This document shows positions 1,734 to 60,499 of a stretch of DNA of 64,000 bases, in pieces. A program made the translations under genes and the position numbers. Within the stretch, counting starts at the first letter, position 1, and the number at the start of each line of letters is the position of its first letter. The notes under the pieces were generated by a model. The model had not been told where the DNA came from and ran no database searches. It saw only the letters and a program-made list of their open reading frames with translations. Source of the stretch: Hymenobacter siberiensis (GTDB taxonomy: Bacteria; Bacteroidota; Bacteroidia; Cytophagales; Hymenobacteraceae); the NCBI RefSeq assembly GCF_018967845.1, contig NZ_JAHLZZ010000001.1, positions 1,798,001 through 1,862,000 of the forward strand. The letters are read 5' to 3'.

Positions 1734-2048
1734 ATTTGCGGCTCCTTAATAACTGGGGCCAACTGCAATCGCCGAGCTACTGTCCCGCGTCGCCCATTCG
1801 CCTTTTTAGCCCCCCCAAACGGCGCGGTCAATTGGGGCCACGCCGCACCAGCGGCCTATAGTGCCGACTGGGCGATATCCACCCCCTGCTGGCCGATACA
1901 AGGCCCGGGCACCCAAGGGCGAGTTGTAGCTTTGGAGAGAGTTAAAAGTTGGGAGTATAAGAGCTAAAAATGGGGGTTGAGGACTGGCCGCCGTTCGTTC
2001 TCGCTACGCAACGCTTCACTTTTAACTCCTAACTCCCAACTCCTAACT
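1734..2048. other. Intergenic region with iterated AGTTAAAAGT/AGTTGGGAGT inverted repeat
   Basis: This 315-bp gap separates the divergent peroxidase and sensor-kinase genes, so promoters for both should lie here. A TAGCTTTG at 1927-1934 fits the Bacteroidota -7 element but no good -33 partner is seen. From about 1940 to 1956 the strand reads AGTTAAAAGTTGGGAGT, and the reverse complement of closely related decamers fills 2018-2048. Together they form an imperfect inverted repeat that ends at the kinase start codon. The 1734-1920 part shows nothing else recognisable. Confidence 0.5.
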
Positions 2049-23323: not shown

Positions 23324-24070
23324 ATGAACACCTCCAAATCCCTTCTTTCTGTATTGATGGCTTTCGTGCTGCTGTTTAGCTCCTGCGCCACTTCGCAGCA
23401 AGCCAGCTCCACGCAGCCCGATCTTTCGACCAACAACGGTACCGGTGCCCGCAAAACTGGCATGAGCAAAACCGTTAAAGGTGGCCTGCTGGGCGCTGGT
23501 GGTGGTGCTATTCTTGGTGGCGTAGTTGGTGGCTTGCTGGGCGGTGGCAAGGGCACGGCTATCGGGGCCATCGTAGGTGCTGCTGCGGGTGGTACCACGG
23601 GTGCCATCATTGGTCGCAAAATGGATAAGCAGGCCGAAGACCTGCAAAAAGACATGCAGAACGCCAAGGTTGAGCGCGTGGGCGAAGGCATTAAAATTAC
23701 CTTCGACTCGGGTATCCTCTTCGATACCAACTCGGCTACGCTGCGTTCGGCTTCGGAATCGGACATCACCAAGATGGCTGCCATTCTCCAGAAATACCCC
23801 GATACCAACGTGCTGGTGGAAGGCCACACCGATAACTCGGGTTCGGATGCCATCAACCAGCCCCTGTCGGAGCGCCGGGCCCAGGCCGTGGCCAACTCCA
23901 CCATCGCCAAAGGTGTTTCGTCGAGCCGCATCACCACTCAGGGCTACGGCTCGACCCAGCCCGTGGGCGACAACACCACGGCCGAAGGCAAGCAGGCCAA
24001 CCGTCGCGTAGAAATCGCTATCTACGCCAACGAAAAGATGAAGAAAGCGGCCGAGCAAGGCCGTTTGTAA
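23324..24070 (+). CDS. Glycine-zipper OmpA-family lipoprotein
   Basis: The protein has 248 residues. The lipobox LLFSSC (Cys 21) is followed by a Ser/Thr/Gln-rich linker, then a glycine zipper (about 50-100: GGGAILGGVVGGLLGGGKG, AIVGAAAGGTTGAIIG) that can insert in or bind a membrane. The OmpA domain (about 115-240) has LFDTNSATLRSASESD, VLVEGHTDNSGSDAINQPLS and NRRVEIAIYANE, with the Asp and Arg that hold diaminopimelate. It is the first of three related envelope genes in a row; the third (24751) is a clear paralogue. The likely role is outer-membrane to wall linkage. Confidence 0.92.
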   Translation: MNTSKSLLSVLMAFVLLFSSCATSQQASSTQPDLSTNNGTGARKTGMSKTVKGGLLGAGGGAILGGVVGGLLGGGKGTAIGAIVGAAAGGTTGAIIGRKMDKQAEDLQKDMQNAKVERVGEGIKITFDSGILFDTNSATLRSASESDITKMAAILQKYPDTNVLVEGHTDNSGSDAINQPLSERRAQAVANSTIAKGVSSSRITTQGYGSTQPVGDNTTAEGKQANRRVEIAIYANEKMKKAAEQGRL

Positions 24071-24750: not shown

Positions 24751-25467
24751 ATGAAATTTCTTCGTTCATCCATTGCGTTTCTGTTCGCCCTGCTGCTGCT
24801 GGTAAACAATTTTGCGCAAGCCCAGACCTCTACCGTTTCGACTGCCAAGCCGAAGGGCATGAGCAAAACCCTCAAAGGCGGCCTCATTGGTGGCCTGGGT
24901 GGTGCCGTAGTTGGTGGCGTGGCCGGCCGCCTGATTGGCGGTAAGTCGGGCACGGCCAAAGGGGCCATCATTGGGGCTGTAGTAGGTGGTACGGCGGGTG
25001 CCCTCATCGGCCGCAAAATGGATAAGGCGGCCGCCGAGCTGCGCCGCGACCTGGAAGGCGCAACTGTAGAGCGCGTGGGCGAAGGCATCAAAATTACCTT
25101 TGCATCGGGCATCCTGTTCGGCACCAACTCGTCGAACCTGACCCCGGAAGCTGCCGGCAACATCGACCAGCTGGCCACCACCCTCAAGAAGTATGCTGAT
25201 ACCAGCGTGGTGGTGGAAGGCCACACCGATAGCTCGGGCTCAGATGCCATCAACCAGCCCCTGTCGGAGCGTCGGGCCCAGGCCGTGTCGAACGAGATTC
25301 AGGGCCAGGGCGTAGACTCGGGCCGCATCACGGCCACCGGCTACGGCGCTACCCAGCCCGTGGGCGACAACGCTACCGCCGCCGGCAAATCGGCCAACCG
25401 CCGCGTAGAAGTAGCCATCTTCGCCAACGACAAGATGCAGAAGGCCGCCAAAAAAGGCCAGCTGTAA
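24751..25467 (+). CDS. Glycine-zipper OmpA-family protein (paralogue)
   Basis: The protein has 238 residues from ATG 24751, where a clear signal peptide begins (MKFLRSSIAFLFALLLLVNN, ending FAQAQ). There is no lipobox, unlike the paralogue at 23324. The glycine zipper (about 45-95) and OmpA domain (about 105-232; VVVEGHTDSSGSDAINQPLS, NRRVEVAIFAND) align with that paralogue almost without gaps. The zipper may replace the lipid anchor for outer-membrane attachment. The pair probably arose by tandem duplication. Confidence 0.92.
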   Translation: MKFLRSSIAFLFALLLLVNNFAQAQTSTVSTAKPKGMSKTLKGGLIGGLGGAVVGGVAGRLIGGKSGTAKGAIIGAVVGGTAGALIGRKMDKAAAELRRDLEGATVERVGEGIKITFASGILFGTNSSNLTPEAAGNIDQLATTLKKYADTSVVVEGHTDSSGSDAINQPLSERRAQAVSNEIQGQGVDSGRITATGYGATQPVGDNATAAGKSANRRVEVAIFANDKMQKAAKKGQL

Positions 25468-26400: not shown

Positions 26401-26496
26401 TAGCTGTTAGCTTTTAGCTGTTAGCTTCGTTGTGGCGCTTGGAGGAGGCCGGAACATAAAAAGCTGATAGCTAAAAGCTAATGGCTAACAGCTAAA
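26401..26496. repeat. A/T-rich inverted repeat of AGCTGTTAGC units
   Basis: The left half iterates TAGCTGTTAGCTTTTAGCTG and the right half AGCTGATAGCTAAAAGCTAA with complement order, around about 35 bp of unique sequence. It begins 3 bp after the endonuclease stop codon and ends 3 bp before the radical SAM start codon. Confidence 0.8.
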
Positions 26497-32969: not shown

Positions 32970-34076
32970 GTGCCCACGACTCCTGCCCCGCCCGCCACGC
33001 TACTCATTCAAACCGCCTTCATCGGCGACGTTATTCTGATGACGGCGCTGCTGGAATATCTGCATCAGTCCGAGCCCGCCACGCCCGTCGATGTGCTGGT
33101 GCGCCGCGGCAACGAGGGCCTGCTGGCCGGCCATCCGCACGTCCGCAACGTGCTGATTTGGAATAAGAAATACCGCAAATACGCCGCGTTGTGGGACTTG
33201 CTGGGCCAGATTCGGGCGGCGCACTACGGCCGCGTCGTGACCCTGCAGCGCTTTGCCAGCACGGGCTTTCTCACGGCGTTTTCCAAAGCCCGGGAGCGTA
33301 TCGGGTTCGCTAAAAACCCGTTGAGCCGGTTTTTCACGCGCCGCGTGCCCCACCAAATTGGCGACGGCACCCATGAGGTGACGCGCAACCTGCGGTTGGT
33401 TATAGTTAAAAGTGAAGAGTTAAAAATTAAAAGCGAAAAAGTAGCCGGTAAATCCGCAGAGGTTTTAACTTCTAACTCTTCACTTTTAACTCTCTACCCG
33501 CCCCGGCTCTATCCCTCGGCCGCCGATGAAGCGGCCATTGCCCCGTATGCCATGGCCGGCCCCTACATCTGCCTGGCCCCGACCTCGGTGTGGTTCACCA
33601 AGCAATACCCCGAGGAGAAGTGGCTGGAGCTGCTGGCCGCCCTGCCCCAGGGCGTGCGGGTGTACCTGCTGGGCGGCCCGCCCGACGTGGCCGCCTGCGA
33701 GCGCCTGGCCGCCGCCAGCAGCCGCGCCAACGTGACCAGCATTGCCGGCAAAATCGGCCTGCTCGCCTCCGCCGCCCTCATGCGCGGGGCGATGATGAAT
33801 TATGTGAACGACTCGGCTCCGATGCACCTGTGCTCGGCTGTGGGCGCACCCGTGACGGCCGTTTTTTGCAGCACAGTGCCAGCGTTCGGGTTCGGGCCGC
33901 TGAGCCCCGTTTCGTTCATCGTCGAAACCCAGGAGGCGCTGGCCTGCCGGCCGTGCGGCCTGCACGGCCACGCGGTCTGCCCGTTGGGGCACTTTCGCTG
34001 CGCCTACGGCATTGAGGTGGGGCAACTACTGGCTACGCTGCCGGTTATATCATCCGAAAGCCGGCTGTTATCCTGA
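32970..34076 (+). CDS. Glycosyltransferase family 9 (heptosyltransferase-like) with repeat-encoded insert
   Basis: The protein has 368 residues. It has the GT-B fold of ADP-heptose:LPS heptosyltransferases: LLIQTAFIGDVILMTALLEY at the N-terminus, and APTSVWFTKQYPEEKWLELL, VYLLGGPPDVAACE and VNDSAPMHLCSAVGAPVTAV for the donor-binding half. It adds a sugar to lipid A core or a related glycolipid on the cytosolic face. Residues about 145-175 (VKSEELKIKSEKVAGKSAEV and on to TLYPPR) are foreign: they are the translation of an 88-bp inverted repeat inserted in frame between the two lobes. The C-terminal residues and stop codon come from another repeat fragment. The start is GTG 32970. Confidence 0.88.
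   Translation: MPTTPAPPATLLIQTAFIGDVILMTALLEYLHQSEPATPVDVLVRRGNEGLLAGHPHVRNVLIWNKKYRKYAALWDLLGQIRAAHYGRVVTLQRFASTGFLTAFSKARERIGFAKNPLSRFFTRRVPHQIGDGTHEVTRNLRLVIVKSEELKIKSEKVAGKSAEVLTSNSSLLTLYPPRLYPSAADEAAIAPYAMAGPYICLAPTSVWFTKQYPEEKWLELLAALPQGVRVYLLGGPPDVAACERLAAASSRANVTSIAGKIGLLASAALMRGAMMNYVNDSAPMHLCSAVGAPVTAVFCSTVPAFGFGPLSPVSFIVETQEALACRPCGLHGHAVCPLGHFRCAYGIEVGQLLATLPVISSESRLLS
33404..33491. repeat. Inverted repeat inside the glycosyltransferase gene
   Basis: AGTTAAAAGTGAAGAGTTAA (33404-) pairs with the sequence ending at 33491 over 25 bp with two or three mismatches. The unit resembles that at 1940-2048. It is inserted in frame, adding about 29 codons without a stop, at the junction of the two Rossmann lobes. 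Confidence 0.85.
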
Positions 34077-39572: not shown

Positions 39573-39660
39573 CGTCATGCTGAGCGCAGTCGACCCATCT
39601 TTACCACGATAGTAGCTACTTACTTCCTCGGTAAAGATGGGTCGACTGCGCTCAGCATGA
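39573..39660. repeat. Interspersed inverted repeat, TCATGCTGAGC family
   Basis: GTCATGCTGAGCGCAGTCGA (39573-) is complemented over about 33 bp ending at 39660, around a 22-bp loop. It lies after the receptor gene, before the LysM gene. Confidence 0.9.
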
Positions 39661-54535: not shown

Positions 54536-55825
54536 ATGCGCTACGCTCCCCTTGCCCCCGAGCTTTTTATTGAAAACCGCCGCCGTTTCCGTGAGCTGCT
54601 GCCGCCGGCTTCGCTGGCCATTTTCCAGAGCAACGATGTGATGCCGACCAACGCCGACGGTACCATGGCATTTCGCCAGAGCAACGACCTGTTCTACCTC
54701 TCCGGCGTAGACCAGGAGGAAAGCATCCTTGTTATTTTCCCCGATGCGCGCCTGCCTCAGCACCGCGAAATCCTGTTTTTGAAGGAAACTTCCGAGCACA
54801 TTCTTATCTGGGAAGGCTATAAGCTGACCAAGGACGAGGCCCGCCAGAACTCCGGCATCCCCACCATTATGTGGCTGGAGAGCTTCAAGTCGGTGCTGCC
54901 CGCGATTATGAACGAGGCCGAAAACGTGTATCTAGCCTCCAACGAGCACATTCGGGCCGTGGTTGAAGTGGAAACGCGCGATGCCCGCTTCATTAAGAGC
55001 CTGCAGGCGCAGTACCCGCTGCACACCTACCGCCGGGCGGCGCGCTTGCTGCACCAGCTGCGTGCCATCAAGAGCCCCGAGGAAATCCGGGTAATGCGTG
55101 AGGCTTGCGACATTACGGGCAAGGCGTTTCGGCGCTTGCTGGGCTTCGTAAAGCCGGGCGTGTGGGAGTTTGAGATTGAGGCCGAAATCGTGCACGAGTT
55201 TATGCGCAACCGCAGCCGGGGGCCGGCCTACGGCAGTATTGTGGCCAGCGGCAAAAATGCCACCGTGCTGCACTACACCACCAACGACAACCAGTGCCAG
55301 GACGGCGAGGTGATTCTGCTCGACTTCGGGGCTGAATACGCCAACTACGCCGCCGACCTTTCGCGCTCAATTCCGGTCAATGGCAAGTTCAGCCCGCGCC
55401 AGCGCCAGGTGTACGATGCCGTGCTGAACGTGATGGATTTCGCCAAAACGCGCCTCGTACCCGGCACCGAAATCGAAGAATACCACCGCCAGGTAGGCGA
55501 AGCCATGGAGCAGCAGCTCATCAAGCTCGACCTGCTGAATGCCGCCGACGTGAAAAACCAGGACCCCGCTGCGCCGCTCTACAAGAAGTACTTCATGCAC
55601 GGCACCAGCCACTACCTCGGCCTCGATGTCCACGACGTGGGCTATAAGTACCGCACCTTCGAAGCCGGCATGGTGTACACCTGCGAGCCCGGTATCTACA
55701 TTCCCGAGGAAGGCCTGGGTATCCGCCTGGAAAATGATATCCTGCTCACTGCCAATGGCAATGAAGATTTGATGGCCAATATTCCGATTCAGGCCGATGA
55801 GATTGAGGCCTTGATGAGAAAATAA
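54536..55825 (+). CDS. Xaa-Pro aminopeptidase (M24, aminopeptidase P family)
   Basis: The protein has 429 residues from ATG 54536; the earlier in-frame codons come from the transposon flank. An aminopeptidase P N-domain (about 1-130, RFRELLPPASLAIFQSNDVM) precedes the pita-bread domain. The five metal ligands are visible: ILLDFGAEYANYAADLSRS (two Asp), HGTSHYLGLDVHD (His), VYTCEPGIYIPEE (Glu) and IRLENDILLT (Glu). It removes an N-terminal residue from peptides with Pro second, using two Mn ions, in the cytosol. Its stop codon touches the nested palindrome. The call is firm. Confidence 0.94.
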   Translation: MRYAPLAPELFIENRRRFRELLPPASLAIFQSNDVMPTNADGTMAFRQSNDLFYLSGVDQEESILVIFPDARLPQHREILFLKETSEHILIWEGYKLTKDEARQNSGIPTIMWLESFKSVLPAIMNEAENVYLASNEHIRAVVEVETRDARFIKSLQAQYPLHTYRRAARLLHQLRAIKSPEEIRVMREACDITGKAFRRLLGFVKPGVWEFEIEAEIVHEFMRNRSRGPAYGSIVASGKNATVLHYTTNDNQCQDGEVILLDFGAEYANYAADLSRSIPVNGKFSPRQRQVYDAVLNVMDFAKTRLVPGTEIEEYHRQVGEAMEQQLIKLDLLNAADVKNQDPAAPLYKKYFMHGTSHYLGLDVHDVGYKYRTFEAGMVYTCEPGIYIPEEGLGIRLENDILLTANGNEDLMANIPIQADEIEALMRK

Positions 55826-56029
55826 TGTGAAGAATTGAAAAATGTGGGAAATGTGAGAATAGGGTAAGCTAGTTGTACAGCGCCCAAGAATATTGGAGTT
55901 GTTTAGAAAGTCACAAAAGGTCCCCGAACGGTCATGCAGAGCGCAGCGAAGCATGACCGTTCGGGGACTTTCTAAACAACTCCATTTTCACATTCCCCAC
56001 ATTCCCCACATTTTTCAATTCTTCACATT
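55824..56029. repeat. Nested inverted repeat between two convergent genes
   Basis: The outer arms AATGTGAAGAATTGAAAAAT... (55824-55860) and their complement (55984-56029) run from stop codon to stop codon. The loop contains a complete second palindrome (55897-55981) of another family. Confidence 0.9.
55897..55981. repeat. Palindromic element, TGTTTAGAAAGTC type, inside another repeat
   Basis: AGTTGTTTAGAAAGTC and GACTTTCTAAACAACT are the outer arms; TCCCCGAACGGTCATGC and GCATGACCGTTCGGGGA the inner. Compare 42271-42349, where the same segments occur with the spacer ACAAAAGG on the other side. Confidence 0.9.
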
Positions 56030-56583
56030 CATTTACCGGTGGCCTGCACAATCTGCGGCAGGTATTTGCTCAGGGCTGCTACCTGGGCACTGGTGAAATT
56101 GCCCTGTACCGACACTAGCACGAACGAATCGGCTACGTCGGGCAGGGTGCCGAGGGCGGCAAACTCCGAAATGCTGTTGCCCGCGCCGCGCGTAGACACG
56201 GCGTAGTTGCTGCCGCCGAAGCCGGCGGTGGTGAGGGCGTCATACTTGTTACTTTGCAGAATGCCCGATGCTTCGCTACGCAGTCCCTGGCTGGCCAGCT
56301 CCTTGGCCGAAGTGGTGATGGGCGCAAAGCTAATAACCTTGGCCGAGCGAATGCCGGTGATGGCGTTGGTGAGGTCGGAGCCGCCGAGGAACTTGGCGGC
56401 TTTCACCAGGGCCAGGCGCTGGAGCAGGTCGGCCGACCATTCGGTGGTTTTGAAGCCTTCGCGGCCGTTGTATTTCGAGAAAAACGAAGAAACGGTGCGC
56501 GAAGGACTGCCGGGGCCACCGGCGCGGCAACCCGACAGCAGTAAGAACAGGATGAGGACCGGGAAGCGGAGTTTAGTAATCAT
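56029..56583 (-). CDS. DUF4252/DUF4197-like small lipoprotein
   Basis: The protein has 184 residues. The lipobox LLLSGC (Cys 19) is clear. The mature chain reads SSFFSKYNGREGFKTTEWSA, KAAKFLGGSDLTNAITGIRS, AKVISFAPITTSAKELASQG and FVLVSVQGNFTSAQVAALSK. This fits the DUF4252 pattern of Bacteroidota lipoproteins of unknown function, judged by eye; DUF4197 is an alternative. It converges with the aminopeptidase gene. The minus strand reads TACCTTTG only 4 bp before its ATG (56588-56595), so its mRNA is probably leaderless. Confidence 0.75.
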   Translation of the reverse strand: MITKLRFPVLILFLLLSGCRAGGPGSPSRTVSSFFSKYNGREGFKTTEWSADLLQRLALVKAAKFLGGSDLTNAITGIRSAKVISFAPITTSAKELASQGLRSEASGILQSNKYDALTTAGFGGSNYAVSTRGAGNSISEFAALGTLPDVADSFVLVSVQGNFTSAQVAALSKYLPQIVQATGK

Positions 56584-60374: not shown

Positions 60375-60380
60375 TGTAAG

Positions 60381-60486
60381 AGAGCGTCATGCTGAGCGCA
60401 GCCGAAGCATCTCGCCTGTGGTAGTAATCAATGCTGGTTGCAACGAAGCGAGCGAGATGCTTCGGTTGCGCTCAGCATGACGCTCT
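60381..60486. repeat. Interspersed inverted repeat, TCATGCTGAGC family
   Basis: AGAGCGTCATGCTGAGCGCA (60381-) is complemented almost perfectly ending 60486. It sits inside the operon between DUF4266 and DUF3570 genes and could attenuate transcription. Confidence 0.9.
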
Positions 60487-60499
60487 TTTGTGCTTTGAA

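Follow-up and report, generated by a model that had tools for sequence, protein, structure and literature searches.

How does a near-perfect palindrome come to lie in the middle of a glycosyltransferase gene without closing its reading frame? We addressed this question for a 64,000-nt stretch of Hymenobacter siberiensis DNA (the window), taken from a genome of 4.95 Mb. An open reading frame of 368 aa on the forward strand (positions 32970..34076, GTG start as listed) matches the Pfam family Glyco_transf_9 (E 6e-27) and encodes a heptosyltransferase-like protein of the GT9 family. Within it lies an inverted repeat of 88 bp, at positions 33404–33491. Its left arm (33404..33432, forward strand) consists of the 7-bp units AGTTAAA, AGTGAAG, AGTTAAA and AATTAAA, and its right arm (33463..33491, forward strand) of units that are their reverse complements. 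The arms are 29 nt each, with 27 of 29 positions paired (93% complementary), and they enclose a 30-nt loop (33433..33462, forward strand) that is absent from the other family members compared. The palindrome covers residues about 145–174 and is read through with zero stops. Its palindrome score is 25, whereas 100 dinucleotide shuffles averaged 8.6 and reached at most 19. It is likewise higher than the score of every one of the 40 dinucleotide and 40 codon shuffles in the test used for the other linkers below. Since an alignment-free structure prediction was poor (mean pLDDT 37.5), we used a model built with a 75-sequence alignment. In this model, both lobes are confident and a low-confidence insert lies between them; residues 151–170 (block pLDDT 44 and 48) are likely a disordered stretch in the predicted structure. 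The fold matches that of the heptosyltransferase 1psw and the GT9 structure 3tov. An Rfam scan of the window returned tRNA only, and nothing at the palindrome. The arms, the reading frame, the shuffles and the structure model thus confirm what the first-pass annotation had described, an 88-bp inverted repeat in frame in the middle of a GT9 gene, between its two lobes.

The palindrome sits in a variable linker slot between the GT9 lobes (33399..33500, forward strand; residues 144–177). A search for GT9 orthologues gave a match in each of 120 Hymenobacter genomes, and we read 110 linkers. Here and below, G000 denotes the genome of the window, G072 a same-species genome, and other G numbers other genomes of the genus; the ten linkers outside the count are those of G002, G017, G018, G023, G056, G062, G090, G094, G099 and G108. 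Linkers are short (27–48 nt) in 78/110 genomes and long (63–153 nt) in 32/110, and all 110 lengths are multiples of three, so that the frame is kept. Outside the genus, 51 of 51 orthologues have short linkers (33–48 nt). Residues about 145–175, whose absence from orthologues had been proposed as a check on the insertion, are accordingly missing from most of the orthologues read in the genus and from all 51 read outside it. The TDAVPTPLV stretch that close short-linker relatives carry is not interrupted by the palindrome but replaced.

Among the 32 long GT9 linkers, 24 are palindromic against both the 40 dinucleotide and the 40 codon shuffles, and 21 beat all 100 dinucleotide shuffles. The long, non-palindromic linkers include GC-rich ones in G048, G049 and G077. 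The slot holds six or so palindrome vocabularies (AGTTAAA, AATTAGG/AATGAAG, AATTAAA, TGGTTNC, GGTGTTG and GAATTC-like), families having been assigned by eye in this slot as in all others. The AGTTAAA vocabulary is found in G000, G072, G009, G020 and G078, and close relatives diverge at the slot: the linker of G046 is short, and that of G045 holds a different palindrome family. A tree of the GT9 lobes, computed without the linker, implies at least 12 changes between short and long, or 17 when palindrome families are counted, and 5 or more are forced by its starred branches. The precise count should be read loosely, because the tree came from a quick LG+G4 search (four short-linker outgroups of 33, 33, 33 and 48 nt, many weak branches) and gene trees mix histories; near-identical genomes, moreover, are non-independent data points.

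The arms of the GT9 palindrome belong to a family dispersed through the genome, in which each arm is a tandem row of 7-bp units (AGTTRRR) mirrored in the other arm. The arm pattern AGTTRRRAGTKRRRAG has 66+55 = 121 matches in G000, as opposed to 1+2 = 3 for the reversed control. Two-armed elements consist of inverted arms of two to four AGT[T/G]RRR units each around a loop of about 15–75 nt. Our element set was drawn from 100 listed of the 121 matches: outside the window we read 39 element places, which gave 33 distinct sequences after six single-arm places were collapsed (their matched 16-mer being identical to another's), and the search for open frames covered the distinct sequences. A second member lies in the window itself, at 1940..2048, with all frames closed across the hairpin. 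The first-pass annotation had considered this repeat alike; it does belong to the same 7-bp family, but with an unrelated loop and differing arm units it is not a copy. Of 296 genomes drawn from the phylum, 3 carried the strict inverted pattern of the AGTTRRR family, two of them from Hymenobacter.

The loops are private to each element. Among 22 elements of G000, no pair had more than 15 nt of loop in common, the common words being mostly 7-bp units, and at E 0.01 there were no loop matches among 26 elements of G020 nor among 12 of G078. This is not the pattern expected from recent copy-and-paste. The two arms of an element, by contrast with permuted pairs, resemble each other: arm units agreed with their own partner at 0.888 in G000 and 0.877 in G020, compared with 0.793 and 0.776 after permutation (0/2000 permutations in each), while mirroring in the 12 elements of G078 was not significant (0.812 vs 0.785, 366/2000). 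In some elements, the arms wrap another perfect hairpin, which is terminator-like in the G000 element L147 and in two G020 elements; two G078 elements also wrap perfect hairpins, one of them a CGTCATTCC-type repeat. In L147 (1518–1587), the 7-bp arms and the enclosed terminator-like hairpin form one continuous palindrome.

Most family members lie outside recognised genes. Eight of the 33 distinct elements outside the window are spanned by an open frame of 118–899 aa, and six of these frames match protein families: IleS, HrpB, methylmalonyl-CoA mutase, an AddB-like protein (scoring well below the family cut-off), pyruvate dehydrogenase (PDH) E1, in the form of a fused E1 alpha/beta, and topoisomerase III. 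The other two match nothing and were left out of the gene count. Including GT9, 7/35 distinct elements are thus in genes, five of them complete (GT9, ileS, hrpB, mutase and addB-like) and two one-arm remnants. The complete in-gene members are read in a single common peptide frame of the form VKSEELKV..TLNSSLLT; a peptide of the VxSEEL/VxSEKL..LLT type is encoded in GT9, IleS, HrpB and the AddB-like frame, and an LFT variant in the mutase. Some frame is open across 5/5 two-armed elements in genes and 2/17 others, a comparison that describes and does not test, because in-gene members are open by definition. All seven open two-armed elements contain AGTG units, at places where AGTTAA would give a stop; such units are also present in two closed elements. 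Occupied sites are not always domain borders, as the mutase insert falls inside the part of the protein that the N-terminal domain model matches. The genome search that had been suggested for the arm and its in-gene copies therefore recovered a dispersed family with four other complete in-frame members in the same genome.

We then read the corresponding slots in other species, for IleS in 50/61 genomes and for the mutase and HrpB in 30/61 each. The IleS slot is short in 42/50 (loops of 12–45 nt); it holds the AGTTRRR family in G000, G034, G067, G077 and G078, a half copy in G048, and a CCTCACCCCC-type palindrome in G113 and G101. In the mutase slot, five genomes have the AGTTRRR family, two an AATGAAG-type palindrome, four a CCTCACCCCC-type, one a TGGTTGC-type and one a AAGCTTTAGCTTGCC-type, with nine more long linkers non-palindromic (9/22 long) and eight linkers short. 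The HrpB slot is long in 27 genomes and palindromic in 18, with at least seven vocabularies by eye. When the four slots are pooled, 220/220 linkers are in frame and 89 are long, of which 62 pass the palindrome test with 40 shuffles each of dinucleotides and codons and 27 fail it. The 7-nt autocorrelation of the 62 palindromic linkers is 0.488, compared with 0.259 in codon shuffles, and 7 is the best lag (of 4–12) in 49 of them; in a few families the phasing looks like 8 nt, and a 7-nt period is lacking in the CCTCACCCCC and GC-rich ones. The same protein slots are re-used by unrelated palindrome families in other species.

Turnover could be followed most closely within the species. The ileS hairpin of G000 is missing in G072, which has a 12-nt loop between flanks that are 96.7% and 98.8% identical. 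At this single presence/absence pair, about 15 nt in G072 stand opposite about 87 in G000, so that about 15 nt were replaced, with no clean insertion and no target-site duplication seen. The short allele of G072 resembles those of G073 and G093, which makes allele exchange between species possible. Of the 14 elements (out of 33) that have both flanks in G072 stretches and are thus comparable, 13 are common to the two genomes, suggesting that turnover is slow, and 3/14 differ by exactly 7 bp. Beside the L130 element, at L359 of G072, the same-species genomes show a 107-bp length difference, possibly a small mobile element in G072.

Slot occupancy follows the abundance of the family in the genome. 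The five genomes with the AGTTRRR family in the GT9 slot have 101–156 family matches, and the other 105 a median of 1; the 11 genomes with this family in any slot have 7–156 matches and the 104 without it a median of 1 (p 8e-8, with counts that include the slot copies and with the kinship of genomes uncorrected). Abundance does not decide occupancy: G006, with 123 family matches, has its GT9 slot filled by a different family, and G067, with 64, has a short GT9 linker. From the turnover we infer that the repeat is probably mobile, as the first-pass annotation had suggested. Recurrent gain, loss and exchange at one site, the same-species difference in ileS and the tracking of copy number by slot family indirectly favour mobility, but copy-and-paste of one element was not found, there being no common loops, no target duplication at the ileS pair and no transposase linked to the family. 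The further proposal, that the repeat was inserted in frame and is tolerated within proteins in the manner of Rickettsia palindromic elements (RPEs), is supported by the short linkers (78/110 and 51/51), the dispersed family and the four additional in-frame members.

Palindromes of other kinds also vary along the window. In syntenic stretches of G009 and G020, several window palindrome positions hold different palindromes. The window positions 39575–39660, 55819–56034 and 60378–60489 carry TCATGCTGAGCG-type and nested palindromes, and their G009 and G020 counterparts are other palindromes or almost nothing: position 55819–56034 differs in both genomes, and position 39575–39660 differs in G020 and is nearly absent in G009. 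An AGCTAAA-type 7-bp hairpin at 26401–26494 corresponds to a GCGAACTTTGTAGTTCGCG hairpin with a GTAG-like end in G009, and G020 keeps an AGCTA-type. Separately, window segments 23459–24070 and 24856–25467 each align at about 75% with the other's G072 counterpart, which suggests a local duplication.

The 88-bp segment belongs, in frame, to the genome-wide 7-bp hairpin family, and we consider it probable that it entered GT9 at a permissive interdomain linker and persists there because one frame stays open through both arms. Since related species hold different hairpins or none at the same linker, it is likely that palindromic repeats arrived in conserved enzymes, or were rewritten there, on many occasions and left the enzymes intact. 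The repeats may spread as non-autonomous selfish DNA, with new occupants drawing, by some activity, on the 7-bp vocabulary of the host genome. After arrival they could be edited in place: the 7-bp length differences suggest that arm length shifts in 7-bp steps by slippage, and the mirrored arms suggest that hairpin-templated correction keeps the two arms alike. Selection would remove copies that close all frames, leaving AGTGARG variants in place of stop-bearing AGTTAAR. The added peptide, a predicted disordered loop, probably has no function of its own. More tentatively, and in our view rather improbably, what spreads may be an architecture and not a sequence, through an activity that writes mirrored, 7-bp-phased hairpins in the host vocabulary, wraps terminator or REP hairpins and refills permissive enzyme linkers.

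Growth in situ, without any mobility, is a serious contender, though we do not favour it. A linker could become palindromic by 7-bp slippage and hairpin template switching, with the mirror arm being copied and the vocabulary reflecting a genome-wide mutational bias. The private loops in the three genomes tested (G000, G020 and G078), the mirrored arms of G000 and G020 (those of G078 not being significant), the exact 7-bp differences between same-species genomes and the arms that wrap other perfect hairpins (L147, two G020 elements and the CGTCATTCC-type case in G078) are all consistent with such growth. Harder to account for by such growth are the tracking of genome copy number by the slot family, the filling of one slot by unrelated families and the narrow vocabulary within one genome. 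The reading as an ordinary low-complexity loop, rich in Lys, Glu and Ser and under relaxed selection, fits the variable linker and the low model confidence. It was rejected on DNA-level palindromy beyond codon shuffles in 62/89 long linkers, and with the 7-nt period and the match to a dispersed repeat also against it, we find it hardly credible.

We regard it as unlikely that the palindromes are REP- or MITE-type repeats moved by REP-associated tyrosine transposases (RAYTs). The genome does encode four RAYT-like genes (L033–L036), one above the NF047646 cut-off, and three of the four have hairpins of other families beside them, one with a GTAG tag. The window element (33404–33491), however, lacks the GTAG/CGTC tag, the family elements have no conserved core, and no 7-bp hairpin lies within about 1.3–1.5 kb on either side of L032–L036. 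The one 7-bp hairpin near L031 is about 0.8 kb from an IS200 transposase; this gene is an IS200 insertion, and at that distance from the hairpin it was rejected as a mover. Overall, no linked transposase was found at the six Y1 genes of the genome (about 1.5 kb each side). The hairpins beside the RAYT-like genes are of three different families, at L034 1348–2122, L033 2021–2099 and L036 1322–1425. Retention for a function, such as folding of the mRNA at a domain boundary that would hold back the ribosome and aid co-translational folding, seems to us quite improbable. Palindromes do recur at four slots across the genus, and the GT9, PDH E1 and HrpB occupants lie between lobes or in gaps between the stretches that family models match, but most GT9 (78/110) and IleS (42/50) orthologues are short and without a hairpin, the palindrome family varies from species to species, the mutase insert is inside a matched domain range, and the majority of family members are not in recognised genes at all.

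The closest known parallels to an in-frame member of a dispersed hairpin family are the RPEs and intragenic REPs. RPEs are described as palindromic elements of about 150 bp in ten families, with 44 insertions in R. conorii, nearly half of them in ORFs; they lie between genes and in frame within unrelated genes, each with a characteristic peptide (PMC10969869). The Hymenobacter palindrome is likewise found outside genes and in frame within unrelated genes, and gives the same peptide frame in different genes. It is set apart from the RPEs, as described there, by arms of tandem 7-bp units, private loops and families that are interchangeable at one slot, and by its host, a member of the Bacteroidota and not Rickettsia. 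GTAG/CGTC REPs, of 20–40 bp with a tetranucleotide tag, also form hairpins within ORFs in several species, with flexible linkers or loops suggested as sites (PMC3733652). The Hymenobacter element, in contrast, is untagged, spans 88 bp of 7-bp units, and belongs to a hairpin family that does not flank RAYT genes (six Y1 genes, about 1.5 kb each side). Compared with MITEs, which have terminal inverted repeats and target-site duplication, the palindrome has one pair to offer, in ileS, where no duplication was seen and about 15 nt are replaced.

Heptamer repeats (TAACTGA) are reported from Beggiatoaceae, Cyanobacteria and some Bacteroidetes, with indels between two Cyanothece strains mostly in 7-nt increments; as described, they are direct, apart from a single inverted case in the main genome, and mostly intergenic, and sets within ORFs succeed mainly at the protein periphery (PMC4679880). 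The Hymenobacter elements share the tandem 7-bp units and the 7-nt length changes, but their units are inverted and lie mid-protein. In nematomorph mitochondria, long inverted repeats are found in translated genes, where both arms encode conserved protein regions (PMC6649704). The Hymenobacter palindrome is similarly an inverted repeat within a gene, but one that adds extra sequence in a variable linker. By analogy, then, the Hymenobacter element appears to work as RPEs do while being built differently, with its 7-bp architecture, private loops and interchangeable families. Among the matches listed, we found no title in the open-licence literature that dealt with coding palindromes of Hymenobacter or with slots whose palindromes are interchangeable. 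Protein-coding palindromes are reportedly called unique to Rickettsia in the title of a 2002 paper.

Here, a genus of the Bacteroidota displays the process in 110 orthologues of one gene and in 30–50 of three more. With orthologue sets of this size in one genus, the origin of coding palindromes becomes testable, in terms of gain, exchange, 7-bp change and arm matching. The finding also suggests how selfish DNA could lengthen enzymes, isoleucyl-tRNA synthetase among them, by tens of residues while keeping the frame.
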